Below, in pieces: positions 21,132 to 22,390 of a stretch of DNA of 64,000 bases. The position numbers were made by a program, and so were the translations under genes. Position 1 is the first letter of the stretch. Each line of letters begins with the position of its first letter. The DNA is from Vulcanisaeta moutnovskia 768-28 (GTDB taxonomy: Archaea > Thermoproteota > Thermoprotei > Thermoproteales > Thermocladiaceae), in NCBI RefSeq assembly GCF_000190315.1, contig NC_015151.1:868001-932000 (forward strand), read 5' to 3'. Below the pieces are notes generated by a model. It was not told where the DNA came from, searched no databases, and was given only the letters and a program-made list of their open reading frames with translations.

Positions 21132-21500
21132 TTATTTTCCGCTAACTTCATTTAAATAGTCCCTAATTATCTGAATGGCATCCTTACCAAACATCTTAAT
21201 TATCAAGCCAATATGCTCCTTAATAATCTCGCTTTTTACGTCATAAGGTATCGAAAGCTCATAAACAAATTGCCTAATATTATTAATCACCTTCTCATGC
21301 TTATTAATAAAACCCCTGGTGTATAATCTACTTAATACCGTTAGTACGGTTGTGTAGGCAGTTTTTCTACCCCTCTTAGTTAACTCCTCCCAAATTGTCA
21401 TTGCCGTAGCCTCCTTAAGCTCATTAAGTATGCCAATAACCTCAGCCTCGAGTGGTCCAATCATTAATAAAAGTCTTCTTTTGCGTTCACCCTGCTCCAT
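21132..21500 (-). CDS. BlaI/MecI/CopY-family winged-helix repressor
   Basis: This 122-residue DNA-binding protein has a winged helix at about 12-85. The stretch GPLEAEVIGILNELKEATAMTIWEEL, then GRKTAYTTVLTVLSRLYTRGFI is the hallmark of the Penicillinase_R family (A-Y-T-T-V-x-T-x-L-x-R-L). The C-terminal helix would serve dimerisation. It has no C-terminal Cys motif for copper. A palindrome TACACGTGTA lies 11-20 bp upstream of its ATG, between TATA box and start, so negative autoregulation is likely. It lies 44 bp after the trm5 stop on the same strand but has its own promoter. The signal and other targets are unknown. Confidence 0.85.
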   Translation of the reverse strand: MEQGERKRRLLLMIGPLEAEVIGILNELKEATAMTIWEELTKRGRKTAYTTVLTVLSRLYTRGFINKHEKVINNIRQFVYELSIPYDVKSEIIKEHIGLIIKMFGKDAIQIIRDYLNEVSGK

Positions 21501-21510
21501 TATATGGATT

Positions 21511-21520
21511 TACACGTGTA
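21511..21520 (-). promoter_or_regulatory. Candidate BlaI-type operator TACACGTGTA
   Basis: TACA-CG-TGTA is a perfect 10-bp palindrome with the TACA/TGTA half-sites known for BlaI/MecI-class repressors. It sits between the TATA box (minus strand TTTATAAAAC, 21521-21530, centred 26 bp before the ATG at 21500) and the predicted leaderless start of the BlaI-like gene. A bound dimer would block initiation. Confidence 0.6.
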
Positions 21521-21544
21521 GTTTTATAAACCTATCACACAGGT

Positions 21545-22390
21545 CTAAAACTTACCAACTTTAATATCTAGCCTAACCTTATACACATATGGAGCATAAT
21601 CCCTAACAACCCTCCTATTAATGACCTGGCATTCATAGCCTAACTCATTGCAATAGTTCCTGACAAGATTCTCCGCATCACCGTAAGGGTTCTCCTCAGT
21701 ACCTAAGTGATAGAAATGTACAATACCACCGTTCCTAACGCACGTTAATGACTGCCTCAGGAATTTATGAGCACCCAATGGCAATGTAAGTATGACCCTA
21801 TCAACACCACAGAATGACTCCATTAATTTCGCAGCATCTCCAAGCAAGGGCAGTACCTTACCCTCAAGTTTATTTAATTTAATATTATCAAGCATATAGT
21901 AATACGCATACTCATTAAGTTCAATCGCAATCACTAATTTAACAAGGGATTGTCTCTTTAGTATAGTAACGGCGTATGGCCCAACACCAGCAAATGGATA
22001 TAGAATAACTTCACCAGGCATTATCTGCCTAGCGATATCCTCCCTATCGCCTTGATCCCTAGGTGAGAAATAAGCCTTCGTGGGATCTACCTTAATTAGG
22101 TAATTACTCTCCTTATGAATGACTTCAGTGGGCCCAGGAACCAAAACCTCATACCTATACAACCTAAACTCGCTCTCCCTTGCTCCAACTCTCCTAAGTA
22201 CGGCCTTAACATGCTTATTCAATTTAATTATGGTCTCACCGATCACGAACTTATAATTCTCAAGCTCTGGTGGTATTTCTATGATAGCTACTGCACCTGA
22301 CCTAGAACCAATTATGTCAAAGCTCCTTGGTACCTTATCCCAAAGCTCCCTAGGGATTAACGGCTTAATAACCTCCTTGAGGGTTGGCAC
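21545..22390 (-). CDS. trm5: tRNA (guanine-37-N1)-methyltransferase Trm5
   Basis: It methylates G37 beside the anticodon using S-adenosylmethionine, preventing frameshifts. The 281 residues begin directly with the D2 domain (AIIEIPPELENY, KAVLRRVGARESEFR), so the N-terminal D1 domain of Trm5a is absent; this fits the shorter Trm5b-like form. The link VDPTKAYFSPRDQGDRE is the family hallmark, then the Rossmann motif YPFAGVGPYA (SAM) and the catalytic-loop region TLPLGAHKFLRQS. It is divergent from atpB and followed by the BlaI-like regulator. Confidence 0.9.
   Translation of the reverse strand: MPTLKEVIKPLIPRELWDKVPRSFDIIGSRSGAVAIIEIPPELENYKFVIGETIIKLNKHVKAVLRRVGARESEFRLYRYEVLVPGPTEVIHKESNYLIKVDPTKAYFSPRDQGDREDIARQIMPGEVILYPFAGVGPYAVTILKRQSLVKLVIAIELNEYAYYYMLDNIKLNKLEGKVLPLLGDAAKLMESFCGVDRVILTLPLGAHKFLRQSLTCVRNGGIVHFYHLGTEENPYGDAENLVRNYCNELGYECQVINRRVVRDYAPYVYKVRLDIKVGKF

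Follow-up and report, generated by a model that had tools for sequence, protein, structure and literature searches.

BlaI-type repressors are known from bacteria, where they take part in antibiotic or copper sensing. A gene for a protein of this type is found in the 64-kb stretch of Vulcanisaeta moutnovskia DNA analysed here (the window), with a palindrome in its promoter. The locus thus raises the question of whether the archaeal protein represses its own gene through the palindrome, whether it controls other genes as well, and what kind of signal would release it. We consider in turn the protein and its promoter, the conservation of the site, the likely extent of the regulon and the relatives of the repressor in other archaea.

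The BlaI-like protein and its promoter

The 122-aa protein matches Penicillinase_R (PF03965) in a profile search with 43.2 bits against a curated cut-off of 22.6 (E=6e-11), the match spanning only positions 1-56 of the 115 in the profile. Its nearest solved structures by sequence are those of MecI (1sd6/1okr). An AlphaFold model of the protein (pLDDT 89), with two C-terminal helices, has MecI and BlaI as its best PDB matches (probability 1.00, TM about 0.6), and the structures matched include the DNA complexes 1sax, 1xsd, and 2d45. Profile, sequence relatives and fold all bear out the BlaI/MecI-like assignment made in a preliminary description of the locus, and the model predicts a winged-helix fold followed by a C-terminal helical region, as in MecI/BlaI. 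Among close relatives, the recognition segment YTTVLTVLSRLYTRG and an N-terminal GPLEA are nearly invariant in the alignment and the C-terminal half is variable; the BlaI-type DNA-binding half has been retained and the C-terminal half has diverged. The features of the locus are collected in Table 1.

Table 1. Coordinates, strand and supporting evidence for the features of the blaI-like locus (window numbering).
Feature	Position	Strand	Evidence
blaI-like gene, 122 aa, winged-helix repressor	21132..21500	-	ORF with ATG start at 21500
Palindrome TACACGTGTA, predicted operator	21511..21520	.	Sequence; conserved in Vulcanisaeta; -20..-11 from ATG
TATA box TTTATAAAA	21522..21530	-	Sequence; 7-bp core TTTATAA invariant in promoter alignment
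trm5b/taw22-like gene (TRM5-TYW2 methyltransferase)	21545..22390	-	PF02475 8.4e-40

A second, weak PF03965 match in the genome (G000:182165; 24.1 bits, L085:2097-2594, minus strand) was discounted as a possible BlaI paralogue on inspection alone, being of the MarR-like winged-helix type. Its ORF combines a winged-helix domain with an apparent membrane segment at the N terminus and resembles a membrane-anchored regulator more than a BlaI.

A perfect palindrome had been described between the TATA box and the start of the blaI-like gene, and it is confirmed at that place. On the gene strand TTTATAAAA (21530-21522) is followed by a C, the 10-bp palindrome TACACGTGTA, the 10-bp AATCCATATA and the ATG. 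The TATA box lies some 26 bp ahead of the ATG, as is expected where an archaeal transcript is leaderless. Bacterial BlaI promoters often carry two sites, and the blaI promoter of the window genome has one predicted site. A further palindrome around the TATA box (TAGGTTTATAAAACTA) was discarded, as the TATA sequence is self-complementary and accounts for it.

The palindrome belongs to a known operator style. The pattern TACANNTGTA corresponds to the classical cop box, published as the core of the CopY operator, and has been ascribed to BlaI and MecI too (PMC7253601, PMC5772342), so that the match of operator style to regulator family proposed for this locus holds. O'Brien et al. found the ten bases to be necessary but not sufficient, extended them to the 16-bp RNYKACANNTGTMRNY, and cautioned that TACANNTGTA by itself predicts binding poorly (PMC7253601). 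In its context, AACTACACGTGTAAAT, the window site agrees with RNYKACANNTGTMRNY at 16/16 positions. Both the operator core and the 16-bp RNY-flanked consensus are shared with the CopY/CopR copper repressors (TIGR02698; PMC7253601). Membership of the protein in the CopY family was, however, rejected: it contains no cysteine and therefore no CopY-type CxC metal site, and it scores 19.4 bits with TIGR02698 against a cut-off of 121.95.

Counts of TACANNTGTA are at or below chance, and the decamer alone is therefore weak evidence. The palindrome is its sole instance in the window, where 1.50 +/- 1.28 are expected by chance; genome-wide there are 17 instances, fewer than the 40 of a reversed control pattern. 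The best palindrome of the blaI upstream region is likewise unremarkable when compared with shuffles. For a match within some 20 chosen positions, on the other hand, we calculate a chance of roughly 1.5e-4 from the 17 sites per 2.3 Mb. The case for an operator is carried by the position of the site and its conservation, not by the rarity of the decamer.

Conservation of the site in Vulcanisaeta

Orthologues were surveyed in 81 genomes of the class, 12 of them from Vulcanisaeta. Relatives of the gene are present in 17 of the 81, among them all 12 Vulcanisaeta genomes; outside the genus, they turned up in a single one of the three other family genera sampled and in one additional genus of the order. 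The preliminary description had staked its prediction on the presence of the site upstream of orthologues, and in every one of the 12 Vulcanisaeta genomes it is found directly after the blaI TATA box, as TACRCGYGTA in 11 and as TACACCCGTA in the other. The palindrome starts at -20 from the ATG (-19 in two of the genomes). Its variants are TACACGTGTA (five genomes, that of the window included), TACGCGCGTA (three genomes, by a symmetric double substitution), TACGCGTGTA (three) and TACACCCGTA (one). The TACA/TGTA half-sites first proposed are thus exact in 5 of the 12 genomes; since the other seven deviate in one half-site or both, the conserved motif is TACRCGYGTA. The TACG variants of the relatives break the KACA core, which suggests that the specificity in this lineage is probably TACRCGYGTA as well. 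Half-site covariation (5 A/T, 3 G/C, 3 mixed G/T, and 1 A/C with a broken centre among the 12 genomes) was rejected as proof of a dimer site, the counts being too mixed for significance.

The site persists where its surroundings have changed. In the five most divergent Vulcanisaeta genomes, the DNA 41-70 bp upstream has fallen to 29% identity, which is background, yet the palindrome keeps its outer TAC and GTA, and the TATA box its core. In one genome (G011) the neighbouring genes are rearranged, yet the promoter and palindrome remain with blaI. The trm5b/taw22-like gene, the immediate same-strand upstream neighbour of blaI in most Vulcanisaeta genomes and in a sister genus (L086), is not adjacent to it in G011; it is a neighbour only, not linked by the operator. 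Conservation of this kind makes a good prediction of what had been a guess.

Three draft Vulcanisaeta genomes have an intact operator before a blaI-like gene with frameshifts or stops in it (L027/L037 in G003, L028/L036 in G004, L029/L035 in G002). These frameshifts are probably sequencing errors and possibly signs of decay.

Proposed autoregulation and the extent of the regulon

The best explanation of the locus is an orphan BlaI-type autorepressor that would act as a homodimer on TACACGTGTA in its own promoter, giving single-gene negative autoregulation; we put the probability of this reading at about 0.78. A dimer of the BlaI-like protein seated between the TATA box and the leaderless start would clash with RNA polymerase, blocking either its recruitment or the start of transcription. 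Repression of a presumed leaderless blaI transcript in this manner would amount to negative autoregulation of one gene.

The preliminary description had also expected a genome search to uncover further regulon sites near TATA boxes. This expectation failed: no other conserved promoter site was found, and the prediction is therefore one of self-regulation only. Exact TACRCGYGTA occurs 28 times in the 12 Vulcanisaeta genomes, 11 times at blaI promoters and 17 times elsewhere; 16 of the latter are inside ORFs, and one is outside ORFs without a near gene start. The motif occurs once in the genome of the window. As the other exact sites fall in ORFs or away from gene starts, a dedicated autorepressor is the best reading, and on the simplest interpretation the BlaI-like protein controls no gene but its own. 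The looser TACANNTGTA was ruled out as a regulon predictor, as it is not enriched over the control; 13 of its 17 sites in the genome lie inside ORFs and one is intergenic without a near gene start. BlaI regulons of such small size have a precedent in bacteria: the two BlaI proteins of Clostridium thermocellum, which bind inverted repeats and their own promoters, control three and one operons, their own included (PMC8457756).

The protein might instead be a BlaI-type regulator with a wider regulon, reached through looser or longer sites, of which the blaI promoter would merely be the best. Degenerate sites do escape exact-match searches, and distant relatives of the protein seem to have several envelope genes under their control in addition to blaI. 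Matches to the TATA box plus site with up to three mismatches, however, number 9 against 7 in the control (counted in this genome alone), and the two promoter-proximal TACANNTGTA sites other than that of blaI are not conserved in congeneric genomes. We consider a wider regulon possible but doubtful.

It is improbable that the palindrome serves a different regulator or is itself a promoter element, such as part of the melting or initiator region. This reading draws on the promoter alignment, in which the conserved block takes in the TATA box and its GTTAGG flank and to some extent reflects the TATA box itself. It draws also on the relatives outside Vulcanisaeta: none of the five that were examined retains the palindrome, orthologues in two further genera have no more in common than a left CTACA half behind the TATA box, and those of the sister genus lack the palindrome with a nearly identical recognition helix. 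The site, however, has just the operator style that goes with this family, and a promoter element would be expected to recur, yet the palindrome turned up at no other promoter in the genus. A chance palindrome retained through common descent is very unlikely, for all that TACANNTGTA is common by chance and several of the compared genomes are closely related, as the flanks are saturated (29% identity) in G001, G006, G009, and G011 and the site has been kept or has changed mostly within TACRCGYGTA.

Possible modes of release and protease-linked relatives

The autorepressor proposed here resembles BlaI/MecI of Staphylococcus aureus (PF03965) in its winged-helix DNA-binding half, its size, the TACA/TGTA style of its operator and the predicted autoregulation. 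It differs in a C-terminal half that is both diverged and shorter, in an archaeal TATA-type promoter with a single operator, and in the apparatus of release. No M56 sensor protease of the BlaR1/MecR1 type was detected, there being no PF05569 match at E<=1e-3 in the genome, and the only protease candidate is a distant match of M48-like type, some 189 kb off. The absence of the sensor protease, noted earlier from the window, thus holds for a BlaR1/M56 homologue. The staphylococcal cleavage site is Asn101-Phe102 (PMC9834060). At the expected position in an extended MecI alignment, which is approximate because the region has diverged, the Vulcanisaeta protein has Ile-Ile (111-112), and there is no Asn-Phe dipeptide anywhere in its 122 residues. 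Judged from the sequence, BlaR1-type cleavage and copper are both unlikely release signals; release would probably come about by ligand, heat or protein turnover rather than by cleavage of the BlaR1 type.

More distant homologues occur elsewhere in the phylum, where 31 of 398 genomes in all have a match, and include a group with a linked protease. In G094, G086, G108, and G341 (loci L166, L167, L171, and L172), the blaI-like gene is followed directly by a gene for an M48/M56 membrane metalloprotease, which is polytopic, has a HELAH motif and scores above the cut-off for both Peptidase_M48 and Peptidase_M56. The repressors of these operons are homologous to that of Vulcanisaeta (33% identity), and, distant as these relatives are, their blaI genes again have palindromes next to the TATA box. 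The operators are, however, longer than in Vulcanisaeta: TTACTAY-N5-RTAGTAA or close variants lie beside the TATA box, often twice and about 35 bp apart. This pattern occurs 16 times in seven genomes, against none for the reversed control, and 12 of the 16 are at blaI promoters. Among the remaining four, one falls within an ORF and three stand just ahead of genes for trypsin-PDZ (HtrA-like) proteins or for a secreted-looking protein of 173 aa; in two further genomes, an HtrA-like gene has a near-identical site in front of it. The protease-linked group is likely an archaeal BlaI/BlaR1-type system, and the sites before the HtrA-like and secreted-looking genes suggest a cell-envelope stress regulon. 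The Vulcanisaeta protein could be a reduced form of such a system, having lost the protease and the other targets to become a stand-alone autorepressor that directly senses heat, a ligand or its own turnover as its signal; we regard this derivation as rather unlikely.

The predicted Vulcanisaeta autorepressor is a sound but fairly ordinary regulator. Its interest lies in being a conserved archaeal member of the family with a predicted operator and with neither an M56 protease nor cysteines, which suggests that the DNA-binding module can work apart from antibiotic and copper signals. It also offers a clean case, confined to one gene, for testing how repression works at an archaeal TATA box. Taken with the protease-linked relatives of the same phylum, the protein suggests a broader family of BlaI regulators in archaea; the literature searched yielded no experimental work on such a family, and none on an archaeal BlaI operator or on the BlaI of Vulcanisaeta. 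In the protease-linked group, the palindrome or a near match before the HtrA-like and 173-aa protein genes was located at L166:2488, before the HtrA-like genes of L167 and L171, at L170:781 and at L169:2409.
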